From Margaritispora aquatica (lineage: Eukaryota > Ascomycota > Leotiomycetes > Helotiales > Discinellaceae), in the NCBI GenBank assembly GCA_007644065.1, contig VJWN01000041.1, forward strand, positions 2,120 to 66,119: a stretch of DNA of 64,000 nucleotides, read 5' to 3'. Position numbers and translations under genes: made by a program. How positions within the stretch are numbered: position 1 is the first letter of the stretch; each line of letters starts with the position of its first letter. Positions 1-55,959 of this stretch are shown here, in pieces. The notes beneath the pieces were generated by a model. That model was not told where the DNA came from. It searched no databases and was given only the letters and a program-made list of their open reading frames with translations.

Positions 1-3000
1 CTGGAAAGAGGATGTAGAAGCCCTCCAGGACAGTATTCGGACAGTTAAGTTAGATTTGATTATGTGAGTGTACTTTTAATGTTGCCTTTATTTTAGAGCC
101 AACATTCCTACAGATTCAACACACGCCACACCTTACTACGACAAGAGGAACATATGCTAGTAACTCGGAATCTCCTCTCGTCATCGCTCGCCTCAAGCTT
201 TGGGGGTGAAACTGTCACAACTTCTCCATCACCATTCACATCATCCTCATATCCATCTGACCAGCCCGCGCTTGTTAACCGCACTATCACCTGCGCACAA
301 TCTTCTCAGTACAGACATAACTGGAACTGTGCAGAAAGGCACTGCTCCTGTCGCTGCCACCACACAGTAAGAATAAAACGACGCTTCTCGGCAATAGAAT
401 ATACACTTGGTTTAATATCCCGCCGGACTTGCAACAACAAATTTTGCAATGGTACTAAGTATGGAGTATCTTTCAGCTTCGCACTTTCACAGTGTGGAAT
501 TCCATGGTCGGCGACAATTGAGCTTTTTGTTCTCGCTGCACAAGCCAGATTCTCGCTTCGTCCTACTTTCGAAGTGGAACACATCGTTCGATATACTTCT
601 CCTGGGTTTGAGACCTTGTTGAGATATCAGGAAGGTATCATGACAGTCGAAGAAGCACGAGATAAATTTCTTCATCTCTTTCGGTCAGATTCGACCTTTA
701 AAAATCACGTCAACCCGGCCGGACGTTCGTATATTGAGGTAAGATTCTTAGGTTCATGACTAGTCAATGTGTATAACAATTGAGATAGGAACTCGTAAGG
801 GTACCGGGCTGGAGCCCAGTGAGTAGAGCAGGTCAATATTTCCTTCTCGAGCTCTTTATGGGCGAGTTTCGGATGACGCGGGGAACAAAAGATCTGAGGT
901 AAGAATGTCTTAATATTTGTTCATTAAGCAGACTGCATGCGCAGTATAATGTTCCAAGTACGTTTAATTGACGAGATACTTCTATAGATTTCTCATTCCC
1001 TGTGTAAATTGGATTGGGGAAGGGCCTCATCTAGAATTGCTAGACCATCTTCTTGATCTTGGCCTCGATGTTACTATATTCGACTCTCCGCTGGCACAGA
1101 ACTGGCCTTCCCCATCTTCACCAAATTGGATAGCCGAGGACAGAGTGGATGATCCATTCTTCCTTGAGTACTTAGGAAAGCTACTTAAGAACAATCAAGG
1201 TAAGTCGCATCCTCAACTACGACGTCAACCGTTTTGTGCTAATCTTCCTACATAGGCTTTGCTGATATGTCACCCCTTCATGAAGCCGTTTTACTTGGCT
1301 CGGATGAGTCATTTAACAAATGGCTCTCTAGCTCTGCCAAAGATGAAAAGAACTTCCTGGATCAGACGCCTATGCACCTTGCAACTTCCAACTGCCGGCG
1401 TCTCGTTGCACTAATTGAAGCTGGTCACAATTTAGATGCTACAGATATCTATGGCATCACACCTCTCATGTACGCGGCTGGCTCAAACTCGGAGGATTGT
1501 TTTATCGCACTCCTGGAATACGGAGCAAACCCAAATATCCAGTGTACACGATACAACCGTACCTTTGTGCAATATGCTGCTGTTCGTGGCAATTGGGACC
1601 TGCTTTTTGCATTCCTCTGCTGGTTAGAAAAGGTTGTTGAAGACGATGCGTTAGAAAAGATAATAACTGAGAGCTGGGCGCGAATGCTCACGAATTGCTA
1701 TTACGTGGCCTACCCAGACTATCTTGGAGAAAGAAAGGTGTCATTTCAGCAATTCCTTGCTAAGTGTAGCTCGGTTGAATTTATGATTGACGACCAGGAC
1801 AGAGAGTTGCAGGACAATACCCTTTTGCATTACGTCAGATCTGCAGAGGAAATTGACATTCTGCTTGAGAAAGGCTTCACACGAATCAATCACGTGAATA
1901 GTGCTGGTCAACACGCGCTTATCACAGCAATGTACAATCACTGTAGTTTGCCGGAAGTGGCGCGCAGGCTTCTTGCTATTGGTGTAGAAATCGACATCCA
2001 GGACAACTCACACCATACTGCACTTCACCATATGCTTTATAGCTTGCAGCGCTCTGTATCAAGCAATACTTGGGGAGCTATCGACACTCTATGCGTACTT
2101 CTCGCCAACGATGCAGAACCACTGTGTATCGATAACTGTAGGTGTCCCTGCTCACTTGGTGGCTGCCTTCCTTCCTCGGTACTTTGCATGCAAGCTCAAA
2201 CTGGTAGCTTTTTCGACACTACCGTGCCTATATGGTCACTAGAATGGCTCACTCTGATTCTCAAACACCGAAATGTAATTAAGGCCAGAGTTATTGTTCT
2301 TTCTCTCATTCGCAGAGCGAAATTTGACGACCTGGGAATGACACATGTTTGCTGCGGCCGCCGTTGGCGCGATTTATCTCCGCGAAACTTTCAGAGGCAC
2401 GCCCCAATGCCCGATGAAGATATCGATGCAATTCTGGAGGAAGAGGTCGAGTTTATCGACATGTTACAAGAAGAAATGGCGCTGAGTTCAGCTAAGCCGT
2501 ATGAAGAACTTGTTGATGAATGGATAAAACAAATCAAAGCGGCACTTAAAAAATCTTGCATAGAAGCAAGTGAGAAAGATGAAAGCATCGTAAAGGAAAA
2601 ATTCATCCACGGGGTATATTCCCCACATCTTTACCGCTACCATGAATATTAAGCTAATCCAGAGCAGCCACAGCCCGAATATGAAGTGGACAGCAAAAAG
2701 GACTGCTTTAGATTTAGGCCTTCCCCTGTTTACTCTTGGAACAGAAATCCAGCTGAATCTGCGAAACGAGATATTGTCGAATATATCCACTGGATGGAGT
2801 ATGAATATCATTGTGGAAAGACTTCTGGACCGTGCAAAGGCGTGGATGGATTTACCAAGGACGACTGGTACCTCAGCAGGCATTCTTGGCTGTTTAAACT
2901 CGTCAACGAGTTAGGGATTTCAATGGCAGAAATTGCTGCCAGCATGAGGGATAAAAACGAGCCACATCCAGAATATCTGGTTGAGCAGCCTATCGGGGTG

Positions 3001-3063
3001 GAAGAAATCACCAAACACCTGATAGCGTCGTGGCGTATATGGGAAGAACGTCGAGATTTGTAG
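1..3063 (+). CDS. Ankyrin-repeat protein of the fungal STAND/NLR-associated type, 5' end outside window
   Basis: Intact spliced gene, probably a cytosolic sensor or scaffold acting through protein-protein contacts. Exons I infer: 1-43 (partial), 97-738, 789-898, 988-1199, 1256-2613, 2668-3063. Introns 739-788, 899-987, 1200-1255 and 2614-2667 have GT..AG borders and restore one frame; the first (44-96) is less sure. From nt 97 the product is about 905 residues. The short upstream exon reads as an amphipathic helix like the N-terminal helix of fungal STAND proteins. A CxCxCH motif (CSCRCH, near residue 83) is typical of this family. Ankyrin repeats lie near residues 325-450 (SPLHEAV, TPMHLA, TPLMYAA) and 505-600 (NTLLHY, ALHHM). 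An acidic helical region follows at about 715-770. No internal stop and normal CpA/TpG content, although the DNA just downstream is RIP-mutated. The last intron could instead end at 2673. A ligand or partner cannot be told. Confidence 0.8.
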
Positions 3064-4845
3064 GATGGGAAGTTTGAAGTATAGTTAAGCAAATAGCTGC
3101 TGAAGTACTGGTTTCTTGATATAATTTTGTAAAAGGCTTTAGCCTAATACACATAAGGTTCATCTTCGCACTGCTGACCGACCTATCATTCTACAAAACG
3201 AGAGCTTTGTTACGAGACTCGGCTAAGGATTGAGAAGTTTGTAAAGTTCTTCCGCAGGTAGTTCAGCTAGGTATGCAAGCTGTTTGAGTCTTACTATTAG
3301 ATCATGGCCCGGAGCTGTAAAGAATCGCTTCACTGGCTCGGATAAAAAGTAAAGAGCATGGCGAGAATCGAGTAGAGATTCGCTCCAAGCTAGGCTGGTA
3401 GATACCTACCAATACGTTAGAGGGTGTCGAGTCTCTAGTGCCTATCTATAAAAGTCAGTGGCGTTACTTATTAAACGTGATAAAGACTTACTTTGATTGT
3501 CAATATCTACTTATCTATCGACTAGCTAAGTTTTTAAAGTTTTCGAAGGTATCGAGCCAAGTTATTAGTAGAGTTAAATCGCCTATCAAGGAATTTTGAT
3601 ACCGTAAGCTCCTTATAGGCAAGTATATGCCTTACTAGAGTATAAAAGGGGATCTTCCTAAAATCTATTAAAGTTCGAATAGTAATTCTTTCGGCGATTG
3701 TGGCTATATCTATAGAAGGTAAGGTATAGAGAATCCAACTTTAATCTTTAACTAGAAGAGATCGCGAATACGTCGGGCGTAATAAGCCAATAATCTCTCT
3801 TGCTATTTATAAATTATTATAAAGCCAAACCTTATTACCTCGAAGACTACTTAAAAATTAATTAAGCTAATGTAAGGTTCGCTTGGTAAGGTGGTAAGAA
3901 TTAGTGTTATAGGAATCATAATCTTGTTAAAACTTCTCTCTACTTCTACTAAGTTACTCTTAACTCCTATTTATATACAAGAAGTAAAGTAACTAGATAC
4001 TAGTTAGAGGTATAGCTAACGGGTCCGTAACTCTCTATTATTTAACGCTTCTATTATATCTATACTATATAACCTATACTACTTATATATTATTTTTAAT
4101 ATTATTCCTTCTTTAGGCTTATACCTTTACGAGTCGATAATAGTAGTATTCCTATTAATAGTAATACTATAATAATAACGTTAACTATCCTTTTTTACTC
4201 TTTTTTATATATAAGTAATATCTTAAATATAATATTAACTCTTTACTATTATAGGTCCCTTAAGCGAAACTATTATAATAGTATATAAACTCTTTTTTAT
4301 AACTTAAATAGCTTACTATTATAAGCTTTATATTAAAATTATTATAATAGTAAGTTAGTTAAAGTAGTATATAAATAGCTTTTTATACTTAAATTAACTT
4401 AATATTTTATTATATTAATTACTAATTCTATTACTACTACTACTATAACTCTACTACTATTACTATAAGCTCTTTCGCTACATATCCGTTATATCTCTAT
4501 TCTTTTTATACTTATTATACAAAGCTAGCTTCTATTAATATATACTATATTTATAAGTTTAATAAAAGAATTTTGATTAAGTACTTTTATTATTATATAT
4601 AAAAGTTTAATTATAACTAAGTAATTACTTCCTAAACCCCTTTTGTTTACCTTCTATTTTAACTCTAATAACTATTTCGCTTTCTTTAGATTCGTATAGA
4701 AAAGCTAAATCGCTTTTAATAACTTCTCTAAGTTAATAATATTTCTAATATATATATATAAACCTTCCTTTCTACTAACTCTTATACCTCTAAGGATATT
4801 AGGATTTATATAAAGATATTTAATCGTTAAAATACTTCTCCTAAG
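3064..4845. other. RIP-mutated AT-rich sequence, no intact gene
   Basis: TpA-rich sequence without usable frames. Around 3070-3700 the minus strand can be read as short coding-like stretches broken by TAG/TAA, so a decayed gene is possible, but I recognise no family. From about 4020 to 4840 the sequence is nearly pure A/T-rich low complexity. Confidence 0.6.
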
Positions 4846-10446: not shown

Positions 10447-10483
10447 GATAAGAATAGAACAAGCTTTGTATTATAAGTCCGGA

Positions 10484-10750
10484 GTTCATTCAGTTCATTC
10501 AGTTCATTCAGTTCATTCAGTTTATTTAGTTCATTTAGTTCATTCAGTTCATTTAGTTCATTCAGTTCATTCAGTTCATTCAGTTCATTCAGTTCATTTA
10601 GTTCATTCAGTTCATTCAGTTCATTCAGTTCATTCAGTTCATTCAGTTCATTCAGTTCATTCAGTTCATTCAGTTCATTCAGTTCATTCAGTTCATTCAG
10701 TTCATTCAGTTCATTCAGTTCATTCAGTTCATTCAGTTCATTCAGTTCAT
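10484..10750 (+). repeat. 9-bp minisatellite (GTTCATTCA)n, about 29 copies
   Basis: Uninterrupted 9-bp repeat. The variants (GTTTATTTA, GTTCATTTA) differ by CpA to TpA changes. In one frame it would encode Val-His-Ser repeats (frame open 10466-10771), but flanking sequence gives no gene. Most units keep both CpA sites, unlike the DNA around them. Confidence 0.95.
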
Positions 10751-13079
10751 TTCCATACTAAGCGTTTCTGACGAGATCGTAATCGATATTCTCCGTTTCT
10801 CAGAGCACTTCCCTAGTAACTTCCTGAATAGAGACCAGGCTACCTATTCCGTTTTCCTTACAGAATCCATCTATACACTTAAGAGCCCGAAAGCCTTGTA
10901 CTCCAGTAACGTCCGCTCTTGCTACAACCTTACTAACTCTAAACCTAAGATCTAGCGTAGTATCTATAGCTCTTAATATCTAATGGTGGACGAATACGGA
11001 GTATACGTAATTTCTAATTTCTCTTTCACGGATCTTACTATTTACACTATCCTCTCCTTCTAGTCGCCTATCCTCTATATATTTACTAATAAGGCTTTTT
11101 ATCGTTTTATAAGGATAGGCTTCTCTCTCCTCGCGAGGGAGTAGTTCGGCGAAGCTAGACAGAGTATAAGTATATATAAGTACTTAAATACGGTTCACCT
11201 TATATTATAATGTCTACTTCCTTCTGTTCCTAGACACTCTTTTCACCGTGGAAGAAATTAACTGCCTGACGAATAAATACCCTATGTATAGTATTGATAT
11301 ACTGCTGAGATTTGCTAGAAGCGAACCCGGCACGTGTAGTAATAGGTCTAGTTTTGTAAGTATAGTAAACTAGTTTAGTATTAATAGACGATCGATTTTA
11401 GATTATAACTAAGTAGTATTTAAATTCTTTATTAGGTCGAAGATATATTATCTTAGCTAGAGGTATACTATACTAAAGTTTTTAAAGTATTACCGTGGTT
11501 ATAACGAGAAATTTGCGATTTGAATTAGGGCCGTCATTTAAGCTTGTAGATAATATGAGCGACTTTATATAGCTCTATAACTTCTTTACGCTTAACGACC
11601 CCTATAGACTACGTGGGTCAATTCTACTTCTAGCTAGTATTACGTAGATATACTGTATAGTCCTAAACAAGGATCCTGTGGTTAATACTATCTATAGCGC
11701 TCTGAACGATTTTAGTATAGATACTCCTAGACATATATTAGTAGCTTTTTGGTTCCCTCCACTTTCACCGGCTGTTTCCCGAAACAAATACAGATACCTT
11801 TTATAATTATTAAGAAACTATATCCGATAGTTTTGCTACTTATTCTCCTACTCCTTTATATTAGTAACGCCCTTACTACGTCTCTCTCTCGTTATTGTCG
11901 GATCGAAACATTTAGAGATCATCTCGAGTCGAGTTTGGCATTTATATTACGTGATATTAGATAACACTACTATAAGTTCTAATCACTAGCTTACTAGATT
12001 TATAGTCAGAAAGCAGAGGTCAAATAGTCCCGTATTCTTTTAATCGTACATCTTATATTCCCTAGGGACAACAGTACCCGACTAATACTCTAGCATACCT
12101 TAATAACAAGTACTTAACCGTATATCGCTCCCTTTATATACCCCTTAACGTCATTGGATCTAGAAGGAGATATTAACGGTTATATCTCTTTATATAAACT
12201 AGTTGATTCTTAGGGCTCTGGGCCTTCTTTCCTTAATCGAGCTTTCTGTAATACTATCTATTACTTCTATAGAACCCCTATAATCCACACTACGGCCGCT
12301 CTATTTCCCCTCTGTACATCCGTATAGCTATACCTCTAGGAATTTATACCTAATTTTTTCCTATCTTTTACGACAGGCGTTTGACGTAATAGTCTTGTAA
12401 TAGGACTCCTAGATTAAGTCCCAACTTATATTCTTACGGCGGGTATCTGTAATAATCCGTTCTTTCTTCGAATTCCATTCCTTTTCTAATACTACTAATA
12501 TGTTAGGTTAACGAGATATCTAGTCTAGAGAGTCAATATAATAGTCTTACCTATATACTTTTTCTTTATATAATTCTAATATATATCTTCCCTTATACCC
12601 TTCTATTTATACCCTTTAATAATATAAGGCTTCTGTTCGTTAACTTCTTTATTATAAACTATATTCTTTAAGTGTCTATCTAAATCGTAACTACGGCTAA
12701 AACTCTTCTCATACTTAAGGCACTTAGGACGTATAGTTCAAGATTCGTAGAATTAAAGCAGGTAGGCAATCAAGTATAAGGTAAACCGCAAGATGAATAA
12801 GATAACGAGGTATCTTATATTACGCGTTCCACTTTGAACGCCCTATATGAGACTAATAGTACATAAGTATACTATAAGACGTATTCAGGTCAGCGACGAG
12901 AGCTAGGGTAACAACGCAATGGAGCCGATAATGCCACTTGCTAAGTTCACTAGTGAAGCCAATGCTACGTATGCTGCCTAATACTTGACCCGGGAACATA
13001 GGGGTGGCTGCACATTCTTCTGCTCCCCGGCTAAGGGCCAAGTGTCTATTAGAACTGGTAGGGGTGTAGTAGCAGGTTG
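10751..13079. other. RIP-mutated former coding DNA, unidentified
   Basis: From 10769 to about 11130 the plus strand reads as protein with few interruptions (for example SDEIVIDILRFSEHF). The family is not recognised. The remainder is TpA-rich with many stops in all frames. 12105-12180 belongs to a dispersed repeat also found near 20692-20770. Confidence 0.5.
12105..12180 (+). repeat. Dispersed degraded repeat, copy 1 part a
   Basis: The block with CTCCCTTTATATACCCCTTA and ATCTAGAAGGAGATATTA aligns with 20692-20770 (CTCCCCTTATATAAAACCCC, ACCTAGAAGAAGATATTA). Same orientation, diverged mainly by transitions. Confidence 0.5.
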
Positions 13080-42684: not shown

Positions 42685-42688
42685 ATAT
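42685..42688. repeat. Target-site duplication ATAT (left)
   Basis: ATAT directly before the left LTR; the same four bases follow the right LTR at 55956-55959. A 4-bp duplication of A/T is weak alone but fits the LTR ends exactly. Confidence 0.6.
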
Positions 42689-42931
42689 TGTAAAGGCTAC
42701 AAAACTGCTGTGCTACAGGGGGAGTAGTGTGAGAGGATAGGGTAGCACTAGGTCTATAACGCTCTGGTCTAGCACGTCTAATACGTAGGAAAAAGGGCCC
42801 GTCACATTAGTTGGGAAAGAAGAAGATGATTTGCTATGTAATATCGAGAGCTCCCTATAAAAGACCTATCCTATATCACGTGCCCTGATCAGCTAACAGA
42901 TCAGGTGACCGGCTAGCCCTTAACTACTACA
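42689..42931 (-). repeat. 3' LTR of the gypsy element
   Basis: On the plus strand starts TGTAAAGGCTACAAAACTGC and ends CCCTTAACTACTACA. Aligned to 55713-55955 it differs at 6 positions. Five are TpA here against CpA there, one is TpG here against TpA there; all are RIP-type. Confidence 0.92.
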
Positions 42932-42948
42932 TTCGTCCCCCCCTCCTT
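42932..42948 (-). promoter_or_regulatory. Polypurine tract (plus-strand primer site)
   Basis: On the minus strand AAGGAGGGGGGACGAA abuts the 3' LTR, as expected for the primer of second-strand synthesis. Confidence 0.7.
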
Positions 42949-43104
42949 TAGTAGTCGACCCTGACTACTACCAGGCTAGGCACGCAACCTCCTCCATAGG
43001 CGACAAAATAGTACACCCGGTGTATGAAATGACAAAGCACTTTCGTTCAAACAGCGCTGCGGACGAAAGAAGGGAGAAGAAAAAAAGAAAACAGGAAGAC
43101 TAAT

Positions 43105-45765
43105 CTATATTATACTTCTAGCATCAGCGTCTATTTTCTCTACAAAATTGTCTCGTCCCCTTGGAGCGCTTTCTTCTTTATTAGTGTCAAAACCTTCGTT
43201 ATCCTCTAGAGTAAGAAACGGAATACTGTCCGCTTCTAGCCTTCCTAGGTAAAAGAAGTACGATTTCTTACTGAAAGCGCGACGCTCTTCCTGCTTGACC
43301 AGTTCGAAAGCTTCCTAAGCAACTGTTACAGCTCGTGCTCTCCAGTTCCGGATATACTTAGCGGCTGTTTCGTCAGACCCTGTGAGTAGCAGGTCTCTGT
43401 CCTTCAAAACCAACGGAGAATCCCAGCGCCTTCTATACACGAGAGCGTCTGACAAAGCTCCTAGACCCGTCACCTCAACTGTGGCTAGGAAACGGTATGG
43501 AATAGCACCGTATTTGTTGGCTAGACCGGATAGCGTGGCGGCAGGCGAAATCATATCTCTATGTGCTATAGTAAGCATGTCCTATAACCCTCCTTCCACG
43601 ACCTCCAGATTCTTGAGATCTTCTTGAAGCCCTACTAGCCACGGAAGCATCAGGCGCCGCTCTTTCTTGGCTGGGCCGTCTGTACCGTGTGGGATTTGGG
43701 GAACGAAAATGCGGGCTTGCTCTCTCTTTCCGGGCTTAAAGGCCTAGTCCACACCTAGTAGTTTAGAGTCTTCCTTGGTGAACATCTTCTCGGTAACCTT
43801 ATGGACGAGGCTATCCGATCCTTGTCCTCGATCCAAAACTCTCTTCTACTAGGCTCTAAGACACCTGTGCATCCCTAGGATCATGACAGTGTAATTTGTC
43901 TCATCTTTATCATTTATTGAGACGAATCCTTAGATTATACTAGTGCCTCGCTACTTTTCTACCATAAGTGGGACGTTTAAGTCTATATGTCGGAATTAGG
44001 TGCTGTCTCCTTTCACATTGTATTTGGCATAGTACGGGTAGGACACGAGTCTCTATTGCTTGTCTGGACGGAGTGCAGCATAGGCCGTATAGTAAACAGG
44101 ATCCTGGCGCATTAATTGTTGACTAATCGAGAAGAACATATTCCGTAGCCATCCGTAGTTCGTAATCCTATTGATTTGTCTTAGATAGTGTTTATACATG
44201 TCGAACTCCTAGTCCACGATCGCACTAATAGGCGTTTCCTACTACTATGTGAAGATGTTTAGTGCAACGGTACCTTCATTATCCTAGACCTTTATGTCGA
44301 TTCTATCGCAAATTCGTTTCTGCACGAGACTCTGATCAAAGTCCTACTGTTTTATACCGTCGTTATGGTGGAACTTGTAGGGGCCTAGGTTGTCGGAAGG
44401 TCTCGTAGGCCGATTTCCTTTTCGGAACTATCGGTACGTTGTCTTGTCGGTTTTCATTTTTCCTAGATGTAGCTTGTTCTTGTGTATAATTTTTAGTCTC
44501 TGGTTTATGACTTCTGTATTAAGGGTTTTGACGCGTAGGCCCACGTGAGCAGCAACGCCTTTCGTGTGTGCGAAACAGACTTTCCTGAAACCCATTATCT
44601 AGTCTAGTAGCTTTAGGTTTACGAACTCCTCGTAGGTGGCAGTTTTGAGTACTATCTGCTTATAGGAATCCGAGACCTCCTCCGAGCACTCGCAGTTGCC
44701 TTTTCTCCGCTTCCTGGGCCGCTCATCGTCGTCCTTACTGGCTGATGCGAAGACTGGGAGGCTCGCTTCTTCGACTTCTTTGGCCGCCTCCTTCAGGGCT
44801 GCTTCGTCGACTGTATATTGTACAGTTGTAGCTTCTAGTTCCTTGTCTTGTAGGGCACTTTCGTCGATATACTTAGAGGCCGAAGTTTTACTCCGCGGTG
44901 AAGATTTAGTTTTCGAGGGGTCGCTACTTAGTTCGTGTATTTCACGCGCCGGGAGCGGGAAATCGGGGCTCGGTTTAGGTTCCGCGATGTCTATGATCTC
45001 TTGCTGTCCCTCCTCAATGAGGCCCCCGCGGCCGATTCTCATTCCGTGACCAGCCAGCTGCGCGTTCGTGGGGTTTTCCGTGGCGCTTGACTTGCTTGCC
45101 TTGTCTAGGTCCGCCGTTTCAACCGTCTTTTTACTTGAGATCCCTTTTCCGCGCTTGTTTAGGCGATTGATGATTTCGTTGTTGATTCTAACTACGGCTA
45201 GTTCCTAGCTACATGCGCTAGACAGTTTTCGGATCTCGGCTATAAACCTCTACGAGACCTTCTCAGAACTTACTGTCCTACGTTTAGTTAGGTACTCGAT
45301 AATGTCCTCGTCCTAGTTACTAAGGGCAGCGCGCCTAGCTTCGTCGATCCTATCTCGTCGCTCCGTATTGTTCTTGATCACAACGACGGCTTTACTCTAG
45401 CGCGCTAGGAATTCTTCTTTAGAGATGGTCGCTCTAAAGGCCCTATCCTCCCGGATGTACTTGAAGATCTCTTCGACCGTATCGCCCGAATTAGTATAGT
45501 ATCTAAGTATCTGGTCCAATACCTCCGCTTGTACATCGCTTCTTTCGCGCTCATCTTCAATGCTCTGCATAAAGCTTATAGCGTCCTTAGTCGTTTCGAT
45601 CTGGATTGCTGTCCCTCTAACCGTGATCTGTTAGTTGGGTTCGTCTATTGTTCTTCCGGCTATCCTGTGGCGGGTACTCTCGATCTGGTTAGTGCTCTCT
45701 GGTGCTAGTAATAACACCCTTCTATTATCGAAATAGTTTAAAACTTTTTGGTGAAGTTTTTGGAA
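43105..45765 (-). pseudogene. Cargo gene C: 2-oxoglutarate/Fe(II) dioxygenase-like protein (RIP-killed)
   Basis: One minus-strand frame of up to 887 codons, no frameshift, about twenty internal TAG/TAA stops. It is bounded upstream by an in-frame TGA (45766-45768); the true start is uncertain. Order: Glu/Arg-rich helical N-terminus; acidic, Ser/Pro-rich linker with PAREI (about residue 272) and a nuclear-localisation-like RPRKRRKG (about 350); then a globular domain from about residue 390. It has FRHIDLNV (H-x-D at 593-595, nt 43981-43989), then IPHGTDG with a His 100 residues later (nt 43687-43689) and an Arg about 10 residues after that. H-x-D, distal H and the following R are the iron and 2-oxoglutarate ligands of this fold. 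Substrate unknown. TET/JBP-type nucleic-acid oxidation is conceivable given the mobile context, but a phytanoyl-CoA-hydroxylase-like relative is equally possible. Its start lies about 300 bp from divergent gene A. Confidence 0.55.
44938..44957 (-). repeat. Copy 1 of a shared 16-20 bp sequence
   Basis: Minus strand CGCTCCCGGCGCGTGAAATA, inside gene C where it encodes part of LPAREI. All 20 bases match 49225-49244; the last 16 match 46877-46892. Confidence 0.9.
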
Positions 45766-46076
45766 TCAAATTCCCTTTTGAAGTCGCTGAAACTCTATTG
45801 TTAAGTTACTATCAATTCAGCTTTTTGGCGTTAGGTCAGGTGACTTTTTCGCTTAATTTAGGACGAATTTAGCTTTTTAGCCTCTTCCCTTCTAGATTCC
45901 TAATTATTTATTCGCGATTTCGTTATAAATTCCTTTAACTTTTTTCAAACAATTTCGATTATAGTTTTCGGTCTATATACCTTTCCCTTCCTTCCTCTGA
46001 CCCCTCTCCTTATACGGCAGTACTTATACCAACTCACAGCTTGTAGCTCCGTTACCTTCCCCGCTTTGGTGTAACC
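45766..46076. promoter_or_regulatory. Divergent promoter region between cargo genes C and A
   Basis: Non-coding region with GTTAGGTCAGGTGACT (45830-45845), TCGCTTAATT, AACTTTTTTCAA and TTCGGTCTATATAC blocks. The same blocks in the same order precede gene B at 47840-48053, so the genes were duplicated with their upstream region. The TCAGGTGA core contains an E-box-like CAGGTG. Confidence 0.5.
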
Positions 46077-47510
46077 ATAACTCCTCAACCTAAAGCAGAT
46101 GAACTAGCTACCCGTAAGGTTCTTAATCCCGCTGAAGGCACTATACATATATGTGACCTTATTGACATAGCCAAGGACGGTGTGTACAACAAGGATATTC
46201 TATCCTCGTACTTAGTCGGCCTCGTTGCTCTTTCTGTTAAGTTAGGGATCATTTCGGCATAGGAGGGTTCTCTGTTCCAAATTCCGTTCGTCAAGGGTCC
46301 TAAGCTCCGCGCTAATACTATCATGATCGGCGATCCTTGCATTGGTCCTAATGGCCTTGTATTAGCTATCGACGATGTCATCCTCCGCGGCGGCCTTGAT
46401 TACTATGAGCAGCATGCTAACCCTGGCATCTCACTGCTCGGCATTGAAGGTATCAAGACCCACGCTAACTTTGAAGCATAGAAGCGAGACTACTTTTTTG
46501 CTGGCGGCAACAAGGGCTCTGGTGTTTATGATCGCGTTGGCAGTCTCAATAGCCTGAAAACCATTGATGCATACGTTAATGGTCGCAATTACACTCCCGG
46601 TCCTAACATAGTACTCCAGAACACTCTTAAGCCTCGTAGTAGTTCACGCTCTTCTCGCGCCTCCGGCTCCGCTTCTCAGTCACGCTCTCAACCTCGCACT
46701 CCGTAAGTCCAGACCGCTCCAGTTTAACCCGCCCCACCGCAGCCCGCTCGTAACTCCGGCGGCGAATCTAGCAGAGCTACTCCCGTCCCCTCAAATAACA
46801 AGAAACGCAAGCGCTCGTCTACTACGCCTAAGTCTTCTGAACGTATCACACCCGCAGACGACGAGGATTTTGCGAGCCCGGCGCGTGAAATAAAGGCGGA
46901 GGGTTCCGGCAGAAAGAAATCCAGAACTAGAAGGCAAAAGAGCAAGTAGAAGGAGGACAGTCCCGCCGTTGATTCGGATGGTGCCACCGGTGGTATGACT
47001 AAGGCTGAATTTCTTCGGGATTACAATATTCGACTCTACGGCCGCTCCACCACTCCCGAGGCTGGAACCCCAACGCTCCCCTAACCTCACGACCCTGAAC
47101 TGCAGGAGCTCGTTGATAGTGTGATGTTCGATTCTCTTCTACATAATAGCGATAATGGCGGGGAGAAGGATGACGAAGGTGAACAGGTCCTAGCTATTGC
47201 GTCTTCCCCCGCTATTCTTAGACGTCTGACCAGTTCGCTACTTTCCTTCCTCTCGCAAACTCCGGCTATCGATAGTAACGTAAGCGATGACAATGATAGC
47301 GAGTCCGCCGGGGAGGGTGCTAAGCGTAGTGGACATGATTCTGATGGTGACTGGGATAGCTTGCCTCGACCACGTCGTAAGGGTAAGGGAAAGGCTAAGA
47401 AGACTCCTGTCAAGGCTACTTCTAAGTCAGTTAAGACTCCAACCGAGCGGGGTACTAAGCTTAAGCTTGTCGTGTCTTGCAAGGCGGGTAGTCGCGGTAG
47501 AGAGAACTAG
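46077..47510 (+). pseudogene. Cargo gene A: paralogue of gene B with long basic/acidic C-terminal tail (RIP-killed)
   Basis: 478 plus-strand codons in one frame with six internal stops (first at 46260-46262). The presumed start ATG is now ATA (46077), a TpG to TpA change. The N-terminal domain (about 1-185) aligns with gene B: VLNPAEGTIHICDLIDIAKD against VFNPPAGSIYVSDLIAIARD, ILSSYLVG against YLSSYLMG, and IGDPCIGPNGLVLAIDDVIL against VGDPYLGPDTALIEFDDIVL. A Ser/Pro/Arg-rich linker follows (SSSRSSRASGSASQSRSQ), then basic NLS-like clusters (NNKKRKRSS), PAREIK (shared with gene C) and an acidic then Lys-rich tail. It is antisense to pol. Domain family unrecognised; the tail suggests a nuclear or nucleic-acid-associated protein. 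Confidence 0.6.
46877..46892 (+). repeat. Copy 2 of the shared 16-bp sequence
   Basis: CCCGGCGCGTGAAATA inside gene A, where it encodes PAREI. Same 16 bases as at 44938-44953 (minus) and 49229-49244 (plus). Confidence 0.9.
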
Positions 47511-47839
47511 GTCTTAGTCGCTCCCTTTCTATTCTTTTGTTCTTCGTATAGGTTTTCTTTCTCGATAGGTCCTCTTGCCTAGCAATTTGATTAATGCGTC
47601 CGGTGTGTAGTTCGCGGGTAGCGCTTATGAAATACAATGGTTTTTACAAACAGAAAGATGAAATTTAAATATAATTTTGAAGTGTAATATAGTAAGCGGC
47701 TAAATCCGTGAAATATAGTGATAGGGAGAGAAACAGAAAACAAAAACAGCGGGGATAAAGGAAACGTTCTTTGCTCGTCACAGCAGTTAGTTGTACGGGC
47801 TCTCCTCCTCTCATTCTTATGATGTATTACTACGGCGTC
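47511..47839. other. Spacer between cargo genes A and B
   Basis: Presumed 3' region of gene A, T-rich at first (47521-47580). No gene or repeat seen. Confidence 0.5.
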
Positions 47840-48053
47840 GTTAGGTCAGGTGACTTCCTCGCTTAATTCAAGAATTCGACTTTTTTGCTTATTTTAGCTC
47901 GCTTTTTCAGCTATTTAGCTTTTATTTCGGTCGTAATTCCTCCAACTTTTTTCAAGTAATTTTAAGTCCAGCCTTCGGTCTACATACTCTTCTCTTCTCG
48001 TCCGCTTATCGGCTAACGATCGTAGGTTACCCCTGGCCTATCTTCTCGCGACT
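47840..48053 (+). promoter_or_regulatory. Duplicated upstream region of cargo gene B
   Basis: Starts with GTTAGGTCAGGTGACT (47840-47855) and keeps the same ordered blocks (TCGCTTAATT, AACTTTTTTCAA, TTCGGTCTACATAC) as the gene A upstream region. CT-rich from 47980 to the ATG at 48054, as in fungal 5' leaders. Confidence 0.5.
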
Positions 48054-48824
48054 ATGAGTACCCCTCTGGAACGTGCTAGGGTCTTCAATCCCCCAGCGGG
48101 CTCCATTTATGTCAGCGACCTGATCGCTATAGCTCGCGATGGCATTCACGCCAATAACTACTTGTCATCCTATTTGATGGGTACGCTCCTGTTTAGCTGT
48201 AAGCTCGGACTCGTTAACCTAGAGGACCTTTCACTTTTTAAGCTTTCTTTTCCTAAGGGTGCCCGTCTTCTTCCCAGCACGCTTTTGGTTGGTGACCCAT
48301 ACCTTGGCCCGGATACTGCACTTATAGAGTTTGACGACATCGTCCTCTATAGCTGCCATTCCTACTACAAGGATAAGGACGATCCAGGTATTACTCCAAA
48401 TTCTCTTGAGGAGCTTGCGGGTCATCCTCGTCTTGACAGGTAGGTTCGAACCAACCTTTACTACGGCGGTAGCGAGAACGATCGCACCTACGTTCGAGCT
48501 TATGGTACAGAAGCGGGCAAGGTTGATCTTAGTCCAAACACAGTTCCTTTCGACGAGTCCGACTTTCATGTCGCACGTAAGCTCCGTCCTTTCTCCTAGC
48601 TACGCCAGTACCGTTTTAGTCAGGCCAGAATCCGCTTTCCCGCTCCCAGCAAGCCTAAGAAGAAGCTTAATCCTTCCTTCGACTATACCTACCGTCCTAA
48701 CTTTGGTAAGACCGAGGAAGAACAAGCTCGCATAGATTCCCTCGAACACCGAATTACGTATATAGAGAGGAACCGGTTCTTTTCGAGGGTATGTTTACAT
48801 CTTCTAAGCAGCTTTCGATTATAA
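48054..48824 (+). pseudogene. Cargo gene B: paralogue of gene A (RIP-killed, two internal stops)
   Basis: 257 codons from ATG 48054 to TAA 48822-48824, broken by TAG at 48441-48443 and 48597-48599. An intact ATG and only two breaks make it the best preserved cargo gene. The N-terminal 185 residues align with gene A throughout, including DPGI (A: NPGI) and a YYGGSENDRTY against FFAGGNKGSGVY block. The C-terminal tail is shorter and basic (APSKPKKKLN) with a helical end. The two paralogues therefore share a conserved domain with different tails. No catalytic motif recognised. It converges on the 3' end of pol (49255), so gene B and pol transcripts would meet in 48824-49255. Confidence 0.6.
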
Positions 48825-49254
48825 AAAAAAAATCTAATAGTTATTTTAGTATTAGAGGTCGGTTATAGTTTCTAATATAGGTCTGAATCGCTCTTCGGAG
48901 TTAACGCTCGATATGTTTTTCTCTTCGCTAGGTCTTTTGCTTCGGCCTATTATGATGTACTTTTAGTACGTCTTACGAATTTCCTCTTAGGGAGTAAAAA
49001 TAGAAGTCTTACGTGTAAAATAAAATCAAATCGAAACTTCGTAGCAGGGGAAGTAGAATTAAGCCTAAAATTTTATAACAAAAGAAAATAAACAAAACGA
49101 GGGTAAACATAGCTTCCTTTTAAAGGGCGGGTGTAAATAGAAACGAAGAAAGTTAAGAAAATTTTGGTGCCGGCTAAAACTCCAGTCGCTTACTCCCTTC
49201 TCCCCCTTTTTTTTTTTCATTTCACGCTCCCGGCGCGTGAAATAGCAATCTTTC
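48825..49254. other. Convergent spacer between gene B and pol
   Basis: Contains two A/T homopolymer runs (48829-48837 and 49207-49217) that could serve polyadenylation of the two converging genes, and the hairpin plus 16-bp repeat at 49219-49244. Confidence 0.5.
49219..49244. repeat. Hairpin containing copy 3 of the shared 16-20 bp sequence
   Basis: Plus strand ATTTCACGC, 7-nt loop TCCCGGC, GCGTGAAAT: a 9-bp perfect stem just 3' of the pol stop codon. 49225-49244 is identical to the 20-mer in gene C. Confidence 0.8.
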
Positions 49255-52200
49255 TTACTTCTCTATTACCACCGTAAAGCGGCTTCCCCCTGGAATTGCC
49301 TTCCTGCGTCGATCTTGGCTTTCCAGCTCTTGCTGTCTACTCTCGGCCCCTCGCGTAGTTGCCTGTACCCGCTTACCTTCTCTATTAGAATCTTCGGTAT
49401 TGCTTCCCGGCACGCTCGCGCCCTCCGATGCTTCCTCCTCGGTTCCACTCTCGGGCTCTACCGGCGTCCCGCCTCGGATCTCCGAATAGTTTTTAGGTAC
49501 GAATCCTTTTAGCCTATTGCCAGAGTATGTCCCTTTTATTAGTGTTCCATCTAGCTCTTCAAGCGTGTAGGTTCCCTTCCGATTTGCAGATGTTACTCTA
49601 AACGGGCCCAACCATCTATAGCCTAGTTTAGACCTAACGGACATGTCGATCTCTTGCACTATATCATAAAGTAGAACCAGTGCGCCGACCATCAATTCCT
49701 CTCTTCTCAGGCTCTACCATTCATCGAACGCTTCTTTTCCTTCCAACCTTTTCCTTCGTACCATTAACCGAGCCTCCTAGAGGTCCTCTTCTTTTCTTTT
49801 CAGCTGAATAGCTCTTTGCTGTAGTAGACTCGTAGTATCCTTGACTTTACCCTAGTCCCTTAACCTCCATATCGGCAGACTTATCTCAATAGGGAGAATC
49901 GCTTCTCGACCGTATAATAAATAGAAGGGGGTTTGGTTAGTAGTTACCTTTGTCGTACATCGATCAGCAAACAGAATAGCCGCAAGATTTGTCACCTAGT
50001 CCCCCTCCCCTCCATCGGTCATTTTCGCAAGTGCATCGACAACAGCCCTATAACCCCTTTCAACCATTCCATTTGCTTTTAAGTTATATACCGATATCAC
50101 TACTCTCTTGATACTATATCTTTTCATAAAGTACTCGACGTGCTTCTTGTTTTCAGGGCCTCCATCAACCACTAGCCTTCCAAAAACCCTATAGCGACAT
50201 ACAACCTCTTCCCATAGGAACTTGGCTACCGATTTGGAAGATGCCACTCCTAAGGCTCTGGCCTCCACCCACCCGGAAAGATCCTCCCTAGTAGCTACTA
50301 TATACTTCTTGCCTTACGCGTTCGGCATATAGACGATATCGAGCCCCACCTTCGACCATATACCAGACGTCCAAGTCGCAAATAACTCCTCGGGTTTTTG
50401 ATTACCCGTCCGTAATTGGCAGTTCTCGCAACTCCTTATATACTTAACGCAGTCCCCGTAGTATTCTTTCCAGTAGTAGCGGTCCGTAATTCGCCTATAG
50501 GTCGCTTCCCTTCCCTTATGACCTATATCGTCATATATACTTTTCAGGATCTCATGTTTCTCTCCCACGGAATCCACTACTCTAGTTTGAGGGGTGCTCT
50601 TTGTCGCTCGTCGGTATAATACGCTATTTTGGACCAGGTGTTTCAATGCCTCCGTCTTAAAACGTAAGTACTCTTTACGTTCCATCCTATCAGGTCTTCG
50701 TAATGTAGTTAACTAATTTACGATAGCTTTCGATTTTACACTCTACGTATCCCCCTCCAGATTGTTCTGTATCTCTTCTCGTTGTAGTACGTCTGAACTA
50801 TTTTCGCTAGCTAAAAGGGGGGCAATCCTAAGGTAGTTTAGCTCCGCTTCTACATAGTTATCTAGATCCGTATTTTCTTCCGTATCCGATTCTACTTTTG
50901 GCCTTCGTGACAGACTATCCGCTACTGTATACTTCTTCCCTAGCACGTGTCTAACTTCGAAGTCGAATAGCTGAATCCAGGCTAGCCATCTTGTTACTAA
51001 AGCCCCCGGCAGATCAGCGGCGCCCCTGTTCAGTTGAGCTACTAAGATATTCGTATCAGTTTCGAGGACAAATAGCATACCGTATAGCCACGCTTTGCAC
51101 TTCTTTAGAGCTTTGAGTACCGCTCTACACTCGCGTTTTGTAGCGTTATACCACGCTTTAGCTTCCGTCTAAATTCCGCTTTCGTAACGACACGGGTGGC
51201 GAAGGCCTTCACTGTCAACTTGCATCAGCACTACTCCTTATCTAGTTAGACTTGCATCGGTGGCGAGTATAATTTCTCCCGCCCCCTTGCTGTATTCTAT
51301 CTTGACTAGAGCTGGCGCCGTCGTTAGTGCCTCCTTTAGCGTATTTATAGCTTTTATCTATTCTTCCCTCCAAGCAAATAGGGTGCCTTTCTTGAATAGC
51401 TTATAGATTGGCTTTGTGATCTCTCCAAACTTCGGTATCCAAATTCTATAGTAGACGTATACCCCGACGAATGCTCGAGCCTCTCTAATATCTTTGTAGT
51501 CACTCTACCGAAGGATCTTGACTACCTTAGAGCTACTAGGGCGTCTCCCGTCTTCATTACACACGAACCCCACAGCATTAATACTATTAACGTAGAATTG
51601 GGACTTAGGACTAATCGTACAGCTAGCTCTTTCGATATTAGCCAGCACCTTACTTAGGTTTTGTAGGTGGAGGAGAACAAATTTCCGTATCCCGGGTACT
51701 ACCTCCTTATCATTGAACCTAGAGTAAGGGCCTTTTACCCCGACATCGTCCACGAAAGGGAAGCATATGTTTAGGATATGTTCACGGAGAATCGTAGTTA
51801 CGATTCTACAGAACTGGGCTACCGAGTTTGTCGCTCCTTAAGGCAATGTCGTCTGGCGTAATAACCCTAAAAGCGTTATAATAGCCGTAAGATCTCTGCT
51901 TGTTTTAGCTAAGTCTATCTGGTCGTATCTTAAGAAGAAGTCGATAAGGGAAGCAACAGCGTACCCTGCAAATTCTTCCGAAAACTCGTCGACAGAAGGT
52001 AGTAGATTCGTATCCCTAATGGTAACACTGTTCATTTTCATCGCTGCGTTGATAAGCCTGTATTTATTTTCCTTCTTTTTGACCAAAAACCAGGGATTCC
52101 TGTAGGGCCCATAGCTATGCTCCAGAACACCTCTGTCCAGTCTGTCCTGCACCATCTCTATGACGATGTCTCTCAAGGATTTAGGTACAGGGAATCTAGG

Positions 52201-53290
52201 TTCTTGCTATGCTTTATGCTCGATAGTTCGAATCTCCTGTAGAGGCGCTACTTTAGGTTTGACTTTCCTATATTCCGAGAAATCGAAGGCAATAGCTGCT
52301 TCCCGATAGTAAAGCATCTCCTCTAGTAACTCTCTCTCCTCCTTCGTTAGTTCTTCTCCCACTACTAAGGTATTTAGCCGCTCCCGCGTTAGTCGTTGTC
52401 CTTTCTTTAGTGTCGAAAATTTTGGTTCAAACTAATGATTATACTTTCTAATCTGCTCCGTCCCTTTTGCGCCCTGAATAGCTTTCGCCTTCTATCCAAT
52501 TTCTCCTCCCGGGTTAGTCCCGTCCGACGTCCCTAGGTTTACGGGTATAACTTTTACAGCTTTTCTTTTATATACTACAAACACTTTCCCCTTTTTGGTG
52601 AATCTAGCAATTAACTTTTAGGCTGTCCAGGTATATCTTGTCGTCTAATAGTAGCGCCCGGGTCCCCGTTTAGATTCGTTCTCACCTGTACCTCGCTTAC
52701 TTAGCTTATTTCTTACGCCCGGCTCAAGAAATGTCGAACTACGTAGACTTCCAATTCTACCTTCTCGTATCCCAGATTCCTCAATAAACTCTAGGCTTCC
52801 TATAACAAATGAAACCTTCTTACCTACCTTTTTCTTTTCCGGGGTTCGCTCTCTGCCGGCCCTCTCCCCGCTCAGGACGGCTAATCTTCCCCCGATTCCC
52901 TGCTCCGCTCTCCCGGAAGCTGTGCGACTCTTACTCTCACTTCGTTACCGCCTTTTAGGTCCTATATTACGGCGTATTGCCCATCCTTCCTGTATTCGTA
53001 TGAAAGCCGTATAGTAAAGCTAAAAGGTTAACCGAGTAAAAGAGCGTGGTCTCCTTCCTTTGCAACATAGAGGTGTTGTAGGACTCGAATCCCTCCGATC
53101 TCAAGCTCGACGTTTTCATATATGCCATTAAAGTAGGATGCCTCCCCGCTATACGGAATCATTATCATACTATTATTCCGTCTAATTGCTAGTCTAACGG
53201 ATGTTGCCAGCTCTCTGGTTATAACATTCATTTCCGCACCGGTATCTAGTAGCGAGAAGGTCGGGTAGCCGCCGTTCACTAACACTCTAG
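49255..53290 (-). pseudogene. Gypsy pol: protease, reverse transcriptase, RNase H, integrase (RIP-broken)
   Basis: Minus-strand coding region split by RIP stops. Protease: LLDTGAEMNVI with the catalytic DTG at 53238-53246. Reverse transcriptase: from about 52176, with WFLVKKKENKYRLI, DQIDLAKTSRD and a catalytic FVDD at 51745-51756. RNase H ends with TVADSLSRRP near 50900. Integrase: zinc-binding domain (GHKGREATYRRI, CVKYIRSCENC, about 50400-50540), first Asp in LDIVYMP, second in VVDGGPEN (50164-50166), Glu in GMVERGY (50059-50061) with 34 residues between, against the usual 35. A GPF module (LGPFRV) and a charged, Gln/Glu-rich tail end at 49255. It copies element RNA into cDNA and inserts it. 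No chromodomain is visible. Confidence 0.85.
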
Positions 53291-55640
53291 CTTTCGGGCT
53301 GTCCGTAAGAAGGAATGGCCTACCTTTTAGGGCATTTATATGACCTACTCTCTTTCCCGTTAGAGTGTCGTCGATAACTTCTGATCGTTTGAACAGTAAC
53401 TCTCTAATCTCACTGGAAAGACCGATGAGCTCCTCTATAGAGATTTGTAACTCCCTACCTAGGACTCTGTTCAGTATCTCTTACGGGTCCGAGCGAGCTT
53501 TAAGGCGGTCCTCTAGAGTTTCTCTTTTCTTTCGTATTCTAGTAGTTTCTTCAACAACTTCCTTCTTTTGTTTACTAGTAGCTCGTGTACACGGAGCCTT
53601 AGGCTTGGTGTCCATTATCTCAATATCCTCTTCTTCTGAATCGGCATTACTTCTAACCTGGCTTCCTTTCGGCACTTTAGGTGATATATACTTCTTTTCT
53701 TCATTTCTCCGTTTCTTCATCACCTTTTTTGTATTCGTCTACTTGTCGTCCTTTGGATCCTTTTTCTTACTTCGGACAGCTCTTACCCCAGCGCCCTTAA
53801 GCCCCTCTGAGTCGGAGTCTTCTTTAGAACTTAACTTAGAGTCGACTTTATTGGATACCTAATACGCTCTTAGTACGTTATTATTGGACGGTTTCTGTAT
53901 CACAGTCACTAGCTTCGGCGGCTCCTCTTCCTCCACGCGACTTAACTACTGTTGTGACTGCTGCTGCATCCCCCCCATCCCTTCATACTGCTGTCTGTTA
54001 ATGGGCTGCTAAGGCGAGGGGCCCTACCCTCTACTTCCTATCCGAAGGTTGTTTTGTTGTATAACTTGTTCTCTCTCGGTCGTACCTCTATACTTGAACA
54101 TTACTCTTGCTCCCGGTGTGTACGGTCCGACTGCAATCTTATTTATATCATTTATATGGCAGTACCTCGCCTAGATGTCCTAGTGTAGCATTTCGTATTC
54201 CCTCTTAAAATGTCCTCGCCCTCCGTAGTAGTAGCATCTACTCGATCCCTGACTATTCCTGCTCATCATTGCGTTGAGATTGGATACTAGGGTTTCCTAG
54301 GTTCGAGCGTCTTACTAGCTATAAGGCTATAGACCGCGGTACTGCCCTTAGGGGTAACCTTGATTTGCTACGCCGGGTACGGGAAATCTAAGTGTCTGCT
54401 GCTTTGGTATACCTTGTAGCACAGCAAGTAAGAGTTTCTATATTCCTTAGACAATGTCCGATAGCTAAGCTTCTACCCCGCGATCTACTTGTATAGGCTG
54501 AGGTACAACTAGCGGGGCTAACTTGAGGTCCAGAGCGACCGCCTCCCTTTTCTTTTAAGTTTGTTCAACGAGCTTCTATATGTCCTTATCTACTACTCTT
54601 GTTCCTATAAAGTCTCGAACAGTTTTATTCGTTGTGTCAATATCGATAATAGTTTTAGCTATCTTATCGAACTTGACCGTACTTGGCTACTCAGTTTTAA
54701 CTTTATGCTTCCGAATAACTTTGTCTCGAATACACGTCGGGAGTCCGTTCAAAAACTATATTCCCCGCGTATATTTATCTAGGATTTACTTCTTAGTAAA
54801 GTGTTTAGAGATAGCCGTGAACTGTCTTACATACTGTCTCAAATCATCCGTGTCTTTACGCGGGGTGCTTGTAAATGTTTCAAGGAAGCGTCTTAAGAAC
54901 ATCTACTAAAATACGTCCTGATCTTTATATTCAGAGAGTAAGGCACTCTTGAAACTAAGCCAGTCCTTCAACCCATACTTAGGTATATTCTTGATGAATT
55001 GTCCGACAGTGGTTTCGTAGTATCGCGGCAGCCTCTTCGTTATCTTATTATCCCTAACTCTATGGTCTGTACATAGCTCTTCAAATCTGTCCAAAAACTC
55101 TGTCACATTCGCTCCATCGAAGTAGGGTGCTCTAGGAGCTCCCGCTAGCGGTATAGGTACGCGGAAGGTCACCATTCTACTCTGATCTCCTATAATTAAC
55201 GTGTTCCTCAGCGCTTCCTTAGGCTCTTAACTTGGTTCTACTGATAATTCCTCGGTCCGATCGATCTCTCCTACTAGTATTTCTTCGAATAAGATATAAC
55301 TCATCAACAAGTCGACTACCTTCTGTACCGTTTTTACTATCAATGCCCATGCACACAGCGTTGTCCATACCGTCTCTATTAGTACCGTCTCTCCCAAGAG
55401 TAGGAGTTCTTCTCCCCTCTTCTTTTCTTCCTTCTCTTTTTCGTTCCTTTCCTTATTCTTTTCCTAAGTAGAGTATATATACTCCTTGTCTTTCCTTACC
55501 TTCGATTTATTTTATCCTAGCCTTCGTATTTTCCTACCTATATTCGCGATTCTAGGTAAGACATTAATCTCCGCTCTCTTCCGTCCTCCCTACCTATCGT
55601 TTTCTGTATACTCTTTTATCGCCTCCTGTTCGTTTTCAAC
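53291..55640 (-). pseudogene. Gypsy gag (capsid/nucleocapsid), RIP-broken
   Basis: Gag packages element RNA. The N-terminal part (about 55640-55200) is Lys/Glu-rich with helical segments. The capsid-like core includes APYFDGANVTEFLDRFEELC, ITKRLPRYYETTVG and LSEYKDQD (55175-54906), a typical ascomycete gypsy Gag signature. A zinc knuckle at about 54191-54237 reads CYYYGGRGHFKREY. The usual C-x2-C-x4-H-x4-C is kept except that two Cys codons are TAC, a TpG to TpA change. The 53481-53723 stretch is a basic/acidic linker before the protease. The start codon is not certain, and whether gag and pol were one frame or two is unclear. Confidence 0.75.
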
Positions 55641-55700
55641 TACAAAAAACCGTAACTAGACTAGTATGTATATAGATCCTTCCTATAAACAAAGCCTCTC

Positions 55701-55711
55701 GTCGGGCGCCA
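55701..55711 (-). promoter_or_regulatory. Primer binding site (minus-strand initiation)
   Basis: Minus strand TGGCGCCCGAC, one base inside the 5' LTR. It is complementary to a tRNA 3' end GTCGGGCGCCA; the first ten bases equal those of the tRNA-Lys primer site used by lentiviruses, but which fungal tRNA was used cannot be read here. Confidence 0.75.
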
Positions 55712-55712
55712 A

Positions 55713-55955
55713 TGTAAAGGCTACAAAACTACTGTGCTACAGGGGGAGTAGTGTGAGAGGATAGGGTAGCACTAGGTCTATAACGCTCTGGTCTAGCACG
55801 TCTAATACGTAGGAAAAAGGGCCCGTCACATTAGTTGGGAAAGAAGAAGATGATTTGCTATGTAATATCGAGAGCTCCCTATAAAAGACCCATCCCATAT
55901 CACGTGCCCTGATCAGCTAACAGATCAGGTGACCGGCCAGCCCTCAACCACTACA
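55713..55955 (-). repeat. 5' LTR of the gypsy element
   Basis: 243 bp, matching 42689-42931 at all but six positions. In minus orientation it begins TGTAGTGGTTGAGGG and ends GCCTTTACA. It should hold the element's promoter. CACGTG and CAGGTG E-box-like sites lie in it (plus strand ATCACGTGCCC, ATCAGGTGACC). Confidence 0.92.
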
Positions 55956-55959
55956 ATAT
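55956..55959. repeat. Target-site duplication ATAT (right)
   Basis: Matches 42685-42688 immediately outside the left LTR. Confidence 0.6.

Follow-up and report, generated by a model that had tools for sequence, protein, structure and literature searches.

We analysed a 64-kb window of the Margaritispora aquatica genome, lying in contig C36 of a host assembly of 42.4 Mb and 49 contigs; coordinates are those of the window unless another contig is named. Positions 42689-55955 are occupied by a single Ty3/gypsy retrotransposon of 13.27 kb, coding on the minus strand. The interval of about 6 kb that separates its pol gene from its 3′ long terminal repeat (LTR) houses three additional genes, to which we refer as the module: gene A, dioxygenase-like and on the minus strand, and the paralogues B and C on the plus strand. 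The element transposed recently together with this module.

The two LTRs (3′ LTR at 42689-42931, 5′ LTR at 55713-55955, both on the minus strand) are 243 bp each and 98% alike, and their six differences are all transitions. They have TG...CA ends on the coding strand, and the element is bordered by an ATAT target site duplication at 42685-42688 on the left and at 55956-55959 on the right. Two further minus-strand signals were read from the sequence: a TGGCGCC-type sequence resembling a primer binding site (PBS) just inside the 5′ LTR (TGGCGCCCGACGAGAGG, 55695-55712), and a polypurine tract just inside the 3′ LTR (GGAGGGGGGGACGAA, 42932-42949). The gag region (53022-55300, minus strand) is defined by open frame only; the Pfam scan of the element matched no gag model. 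Pfam matches above cut-off were obtained for a gag-asp protease at the 3′ end of the gag region (~53022-53288) and, within pol (49255-53100), for reverse transcriptase (RT; RVT_1, ~51565-52080), RNase H (RT_RNaseH, ~51067-51372) and the zinc-binding domain of integrase (Integrase_H2C2), all on the minus strand. The integrase region (~50083-50562) also contains a weak match to the core domain rve, with 17.6 bits under the Pfam cut-off of 32.6. The protease-RT-RNase H-integrase order is thus present and places the element in Ty3/gypsy. The protease is read in the same frame as gag, and a second frame encodes RT, RNase H and the integrase zinc-binding domain; this makes a frameshift likely at the protease-RT boundary (52900-53100). 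Together, the LTRs, the ATAT on both sides, the domain order, the PBS-like site and the purine tract bear out a preliminary description of this locus as one 13.3-kb unit. An Rfam scan of the window gave no match.

Copies of the element and their mutational damage

We queried the host genome with the left end of the element, two parts of the module and pol, and then compared the copies locally; the DNA searches scored best candidates only, and copy counts are therefore lower bounds. A complete copy lies at C15:5302-18567. It is collinear with the window copy over 13.27 kb, 93.5-96.7% identical by piece, and has an ATAG target duplication on each side versus ATAT in the window. The 11.6-kb contig C43 holds a nearly complete copy spanning the 3′ LTR, the module and pol and reaching into gag; it has mutations of its own. 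Its left flank of 27 bp is identical to the C15 flank, so C43 could represent the C15 site itself, either duplicated or as another allele. The remaining copies are shorter. That on C22 begins in the module just ahead of gene C and continues to the 5′ LTR, that on C42 is cut by the contig end within pol, and that on C5 runs from the 5′ LTR into gag, stopping 152 bp short of the contig end. C17 carries a fragment in which a piece of LTR accompanies the 3′ part of gene A. On C13 and C32, LTRs stand without adjoining internal element sequence in the stretches examined, and further short LTR pieces are found on C26, C23, C37 and at C15:209869. The same LTR fragments occur at C13:7187-12006 and C13:116451-121260 in mirrored order and with equal scores, which resembles an inverted duplication of ~5 kb.

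The preliminary description suggested that the module travels with the element, and proposed to look for it at the same junctions in other copies. In the host's own genome this search was positive: in 3 of 3 copies assembled across the interval from pol to the 3′ LTR (two or three insertion sites), the module is present at identical junctions, and they are the two complete copies, which differ in flanks and target duplications, and the nearly complete third. The signs named beforehand as speaking for a nested insertion were not seen, in that the searches (best candidates, not exhaustive) revealed no copy devoid of the module, and no inverted repeat pairing the module ends was reported at a minimum length of 15.

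Over 12,266 bases, the window and C15 copies differ by 691 transitions, one transversion and two gap positions (this count leaves out a 1-kb block straddling two sequence pieces), and 560 of the 691 transitions are in CpA/TpG context. Between the window and C42 copies there are 231 transitions and no transversions over 4,265 bases, and genes A, B and C show zero transversions in all three pairings of the three copies. Such near-exclusive transitions, mostly at CpA, are the signature of repeat-induced point mutation (RIP). In the element, CpA reaches 0.67 and TpG 0.68 of expectation, and outside it the two dinucleotides are scarcer still. The copies are young, and RIP-type mutation damaged them after insertion. 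Stops are now present in all three module genes. When 880 codons of gene A were compared, 23, 24 and 25 in-frame stops were counted in the three copies, whose pairwise differences in this gene number 143, 148 and 155; the stops occupy 38 sites, 11 of them common to three copies, 12 to two and 15 found in a single copy. Since many of these sites are not common to all copies, much of the breakage postdates the separation of the copies.

Two ideas were rejected on these data. The C22 copy (72-76% identical) was considered as an old sister family suitable for a selection test, but the 1,970 transitions versus 41 transversions summed over the compared stretches indicate the same family, older and subjected to heavier RIP, from which the ratio of nonsynonymous to synonymous substitutions cannot be read. 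Shielding of the module from RIP was also discarded, its mutational load resembling that of gag and pol.

Genes of the module and a repeated dyad

Gene A (43105-45663, minus strand, ~852 codons) has the orientation of pol. Its frame contains 23 stops in 853 codons, the terminal one included, versus 30 to 63 in the five other frames. The Pfam scan gave nothing above cut-off for the gene itself, and the earlier description of it as dioxygenase-like holds through its relatives, 105 of which were found. Among 10 relatives that were scanned, one (P0064) passes the cut-off of the PhyH model (PF05721; 26.2 bits versus 22), and P0104 from Botrytis cinerea falls below it with 17.5 bits. No match to the TET/JBP (at E <= 1) or AlkB Pfam models was obtained for A or these 10 relatives. 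A PDB sequence search with gene A returned no result, NCBIfam models gave nothing above cut-off on six proteins, and no viral contigs were found with the A alignment.

Evidence on the fold comes from a structural model of the intact relative P0001, not of gene A itself. The model has the double-stranded beta-helix of 2-oxoglutarate (2OG) dioxygenases, of PhyH/DUF1479 type. An HxD...H triad and a basic 2OG ligand, with metal and 2OG roles assigned by analogy, occupy P0001 columns 540, 542, 640 and 650/651 and are conserved in at least 90% of 50 sequences; the window copy of gene A retains the H, D and H of the triad. The nearest solved folds are PhyH/DUF1479 proteins, EctD, GriE and others, mostly small-molecule enzymes or uncharacterised, and a trypanosome RNA-editing complex subunit appears lower in the match list. 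The relatives of A also have in common an extended N-terminal part that includes a CxC...CxxH motif, and the fold matches start at model residue 335 or later. By modelled fold and metal triad, the fungal family to which gene A belongs is predicted to consist of PhyH/DUF1479-type 2OG-Fe(II) dioxygenases. A TET/JBP identity appears less likely, with no profile match and top folds of PhyH/DUF1479 type.

P0001, the closest relative of A, is listed under the moss Sphagnum balticum and is probably a fungal contaminant of that assembly. Sclerotinia borealis, Venustampulla and Coleophoma also have A-family genes. A weak match in the host genome (C12:1995417-1995749; 25% identity to A residues 530-640, E 3.2e-7) corresponds to a short open frame (L025/L034) of 128 aa from ATG with other open frames nearby. 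The search of genome contigs found only VBAU01000193.1 (L035; 4.4 kb), assigned to a Bacteroidetes bin of metagenome-assembled genomes and probably fungal DNA, where a 730-aa A-family gene stands tail to tail with a DEAD/Helicase_C gene (418-2610, 2735-4375 listed).

Gene B (46077-47510, plus strand, ~477 codons) encodes a conserved N-terminal domain of ~180 aa and a basic, serine-rich, low-complexity tail. Gene C (48054-48803, plus strand), whose 3′ end is uncertain, is a paralogue of this N-terminal domain. There are 7 stops in the B frame (terminal one included) versus 13 to 64 in other frames, and 2 internal stops in the C frame versus 5 to 22. B and C are 36% identical over 145 aa, and their upstream plus-strand regions (45829-45990, where A and B diverge, and 47839-47997) are 70% alike over ~160 bp, in agreement with the two antisense paralogues with their own upstream regions recognised earlier. 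B and C are duplicated members of a second, undescribed fungal family, and the duplication took in their upstream regions. At C9:236514-237041 (L029:1504-2106), an intact 200-aa frame that is 37% identical to B lies among other open frames; it is possibly a source gene or a domesticated copy of the B/C family.

The 979-aa P0104 has a B-like domain at its start and an A-like dioxygenase at its end. Its pairwise match to B has 32% identity over 195 aa (E 3.6e-25, taking a database of nominally 10 million). When the 105 A relatives were searched with a B-family profile, P0104 alone was found to contain a B-like part. As P0104 had itself gone into this profile, only the pairwise match counts as independent evidence. 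Whether a real fusion or two genes joined by the annotator, P0104 places the A and B families next to each other outside the element. A protein search with B itself returned none, a result of little weight given that its length filter excluded both the 200-aa and the 979-aa relative.

A 16-bp motif, CCCGGCGCGTGAAATA, has three exact occurrences and one decayed occurrence in the element. The decayed site, altered by C-to-T type changes, lies between gene A and the 3′ LTR (43016-43031, plus strand). A site with a dyad is located inside gene A (44938-44963, minus strand), another site inside gene B (46877-46892, plus strand), and the fourth, part of the perfect dyad ATTTCACGC-N7-GCGTGAAAT, immediately past the pol stop (49219-49244, plus strand). 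Throughout the genome, 10 matches with at most one mismatch were detected, all in element copies (C36, C15 and C43), versus zero for the reversed control. The motif is the sole 16-mer occurring at least three times in the internal region of the element, and 0 of 100 shuffles gave any; of three further 12.8-kb segments of the window, two have no such 16-mer and the third contains a tandem repeat. These counts concern a motif noticed before counting, in element copies that are not mutually independent. The sites in A and B encode an identical peptide, PAREI. A signal in DNA is favoured by the two sites that lie outside genes, and one in protein by the peptide; the motif may play both roles together.

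Away from the element, an open ankyrin-repeat gene is present at the window start (1267-2652), where composition is ordinary, and most 4-kb blocks beyond the start have frequent TAG and scarce CAG. About 30 copies of the 9-bp tandem repeat AGTTCATTC, 96% matching, occupy 10483-10751.

Possible role of the module

We lean, by a narrow measure, towards the account as a whole in which a Ty3/gypsy family carries a three-gene module, now broken by RIP, that serves the element. We infer that such service would consist in acting on silencing. As a mechanism, an accessory system serving the element and not the host through oxidation of a silencing mark is offered tentatively, as a possibility short of an even chance. 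B and C would be produced from their own antisense promoters, would bind either the element-specific dyad ATTTCACGC-N7-GCGTGAAAT with its half sites or the element's chromatin, and would recruit dioxygenase A. The latter would oxidise a silencing mark, whether carried by histone, DNA or RNA, and would thereby allow transcription of the element ahead of its shutdown by RIP and heterochromatin. The most specific version, an element-encoded and sequence-specific counter-silencing in which B and C as antisense adaptors read the dyad and the PhyH-type A removes the mark, seems to us quite improbable. A silencing-related role would suit a fungus in which RIP is strong, and would agree with a speculation, in an excerpt of PMC12730594, that dioxygenases borne by mobile elements counter hypermutation.

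Several observations weigh against a role in silencing. The solved folds nearest to A belong to uncharacterised or small-molecule enzymes and not to known erasers. To our knowledge, the PhyH-type family of A has no link to chromatin. Pfam yields nothing above cut-off for B or C, no PDB sequence matches the C9 relative, and the AlphaFold model of the C/B domain reaches a predicted local distance difference test score (pLDDT) of 41, which makes DNA binding by B and C a guess. A peptide like that of the motif, F[PATS].P..E[IM], is present in 12 of the 105 relatives of A, or in 17 if the pattern is relaxed; with two of the four sites coding, the motif may partly be a peptide signal. The contig of the helicase-adjoining A relative shows no match to B, C or the pol pieces, and the A family is thus not confined to retrotransposons. 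Differences between the window and C15 copies amount to 5.4% in A, 7.5% in B and 4.8% in C versus 5.7% in pol and 6.2% in gag. The preliminary description had coupled a travelling module with possible chromatin- or nucleic-acid-modifying functions. The travel stands, but the functions are not borne out by A, with its PhyH/DUF1479 fold and no TET/JBP or AlkB Pfam match; chromatin or nucleic-acid modification by the module is plausible but unproven.

Roles as cargo or at the RNA level are the alternatives. The module could be a passenger, namely a captured host metabolic dioxygenase with its neighbours, acting on a small-molecule substrate and carried by luck or for host benefit. The small-molecule enzymes among the nearest folds (PhyH/DUF1479, EctD, GriE and others) suit such cargo, and the weak C12 match to A and the intact C9 relative of B indicate that both families exist outside the element. 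However, chance capture would seldom bring in two genes of families that are joined elsewhere, as in P0104, with one of them duplicated along with its upstream region, and the A relatives possess the long N-terminal part with CxC...CxxH, the fold matching only from residue 335 on. We consider cargo rather unlikely. It is likewise unlikely that the antisense genes and A are replication or packaging factors acting on element RNA or particles, by RNA demethylation or nuclear import, and not on chromatin; the lack of AlkB Pfam matches in A and its scanned relatives, and of any RNA-binding domain above cut-off, argues against this.

Two other explanations concern the origin of the copies. As a separate element, the module might have inserted once into a gypsy master copy that was later amplified, and the direct motif copies near both module edges (16 bp, at 43016 and 49229) could be taken as its traces. 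Yet the motif is present inside A and B too, no inverted repeats pair the module ends, and protein queries of the genome with A and B found only the single-gene relatives on C9 and C12 and the LTR-linked C17 fragment, which makes a nested insertion very improbable. An assembly or segmental-duplication artefact, one locus assembled repeatedly, is suggested by the 27 bp of C15 left flank in C43, possibly a duplicate or allele of that site. It is hardly credible for the set as a whole, given that the window and C15 copies differ in flanks and target duplications and that copy-specific mutations separate all three in gene A (143, 148 and 155 pairwise differences).

Comparison with known systems

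The purpose of extra genes between pol and the 3′ LTR is mostly unknown, and the present module makes the question testable through the substrate oxidised by A and the ligand bound by B and C. In a heavily repeat-mutating fungus, it combines an enzyme of recognisable fold, a duplicated partner family joined to it elsewhere and an element-specific motif. Zhao et al. (2011) reportedly described Boty-like elements with brtn.

For the published systems, our comparison draws on excerpts of the papers cited. Extra genes in this position are already known (PMC7264820, PMC6431247), and Boty-like Ty3/gypsy elements of Botrytis and Sclerotinia carry the antisense gene brtn (PMC7264820, PMC8365987, PMC4227169). 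Both those and our element are fungal gypsy elements with antisense genes, here B and C, between pol and the 3′ LTR; compared by description, they have one extra antisense gene, whereas ours has three genes, one of them a sense-strand dioxygenase. In a 25-kb gypsy element of Phalaenopsis, ORF2 is an AlkB-type 2OG-Fe(II) dioxygenase for which RNA demethylation was proposed (PMC9289625). It, too, is a Ty3/gypsy element with a separate 2OG-Fe(II) dioxygenase frame, but from a plant and of the AlkBH5 RNA demethylase type, in contrast to the fungal element with its PhyH/DUF1479-type fold and two antisense partner genes. The earlier statement that an env-like or small extra frame is usually the most that Ty3/gypsy elements carry in this position is thus fair as a rule, with Boty/brtn and the orchid AlkB element as precedents to the contrary. 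Among the open-licence papers listed by our literature searches, no title or abstract opening mentions this element or an LTR retrotransposon with a PhyH-type dioxygenase gene. Unlike DUF1479/PhyH proteins (YbiU, GIG2 and others), to whose chains they are 11-14% identical, the A relatives have ~400 extra N-terminal residues and rarely a Pfam match.

For VANC of VANDAL21 in Arabidopsis, demethylation and binding were demonstrated, and the motifs are mainly noncoding and often tandem repeats (PMC5735166). An element-encoded protein together with a short repeated motif enriched in the element is found here as well; the differences are that motif sites are few, that two are in coding sequence, and that binding by B and C is putative. 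TET/JBP dioxygenase genes are carried by fungal DNA transposons and Helitrons and were speculated to counter C-to-T hypermutation; the excerpt states that no retrotransposon was found with a TET/JBP gene (PMC12730594). Those transposons and our element are alike as fungal mobile elements with a dioxygenase gene, and unlike in that the former are DNA transposons and Helitrons and gene A was not matched as TET/JBP. With the element described here, element-borne fungal dioxygenases would extend from DNA transposons to retrotransposons.

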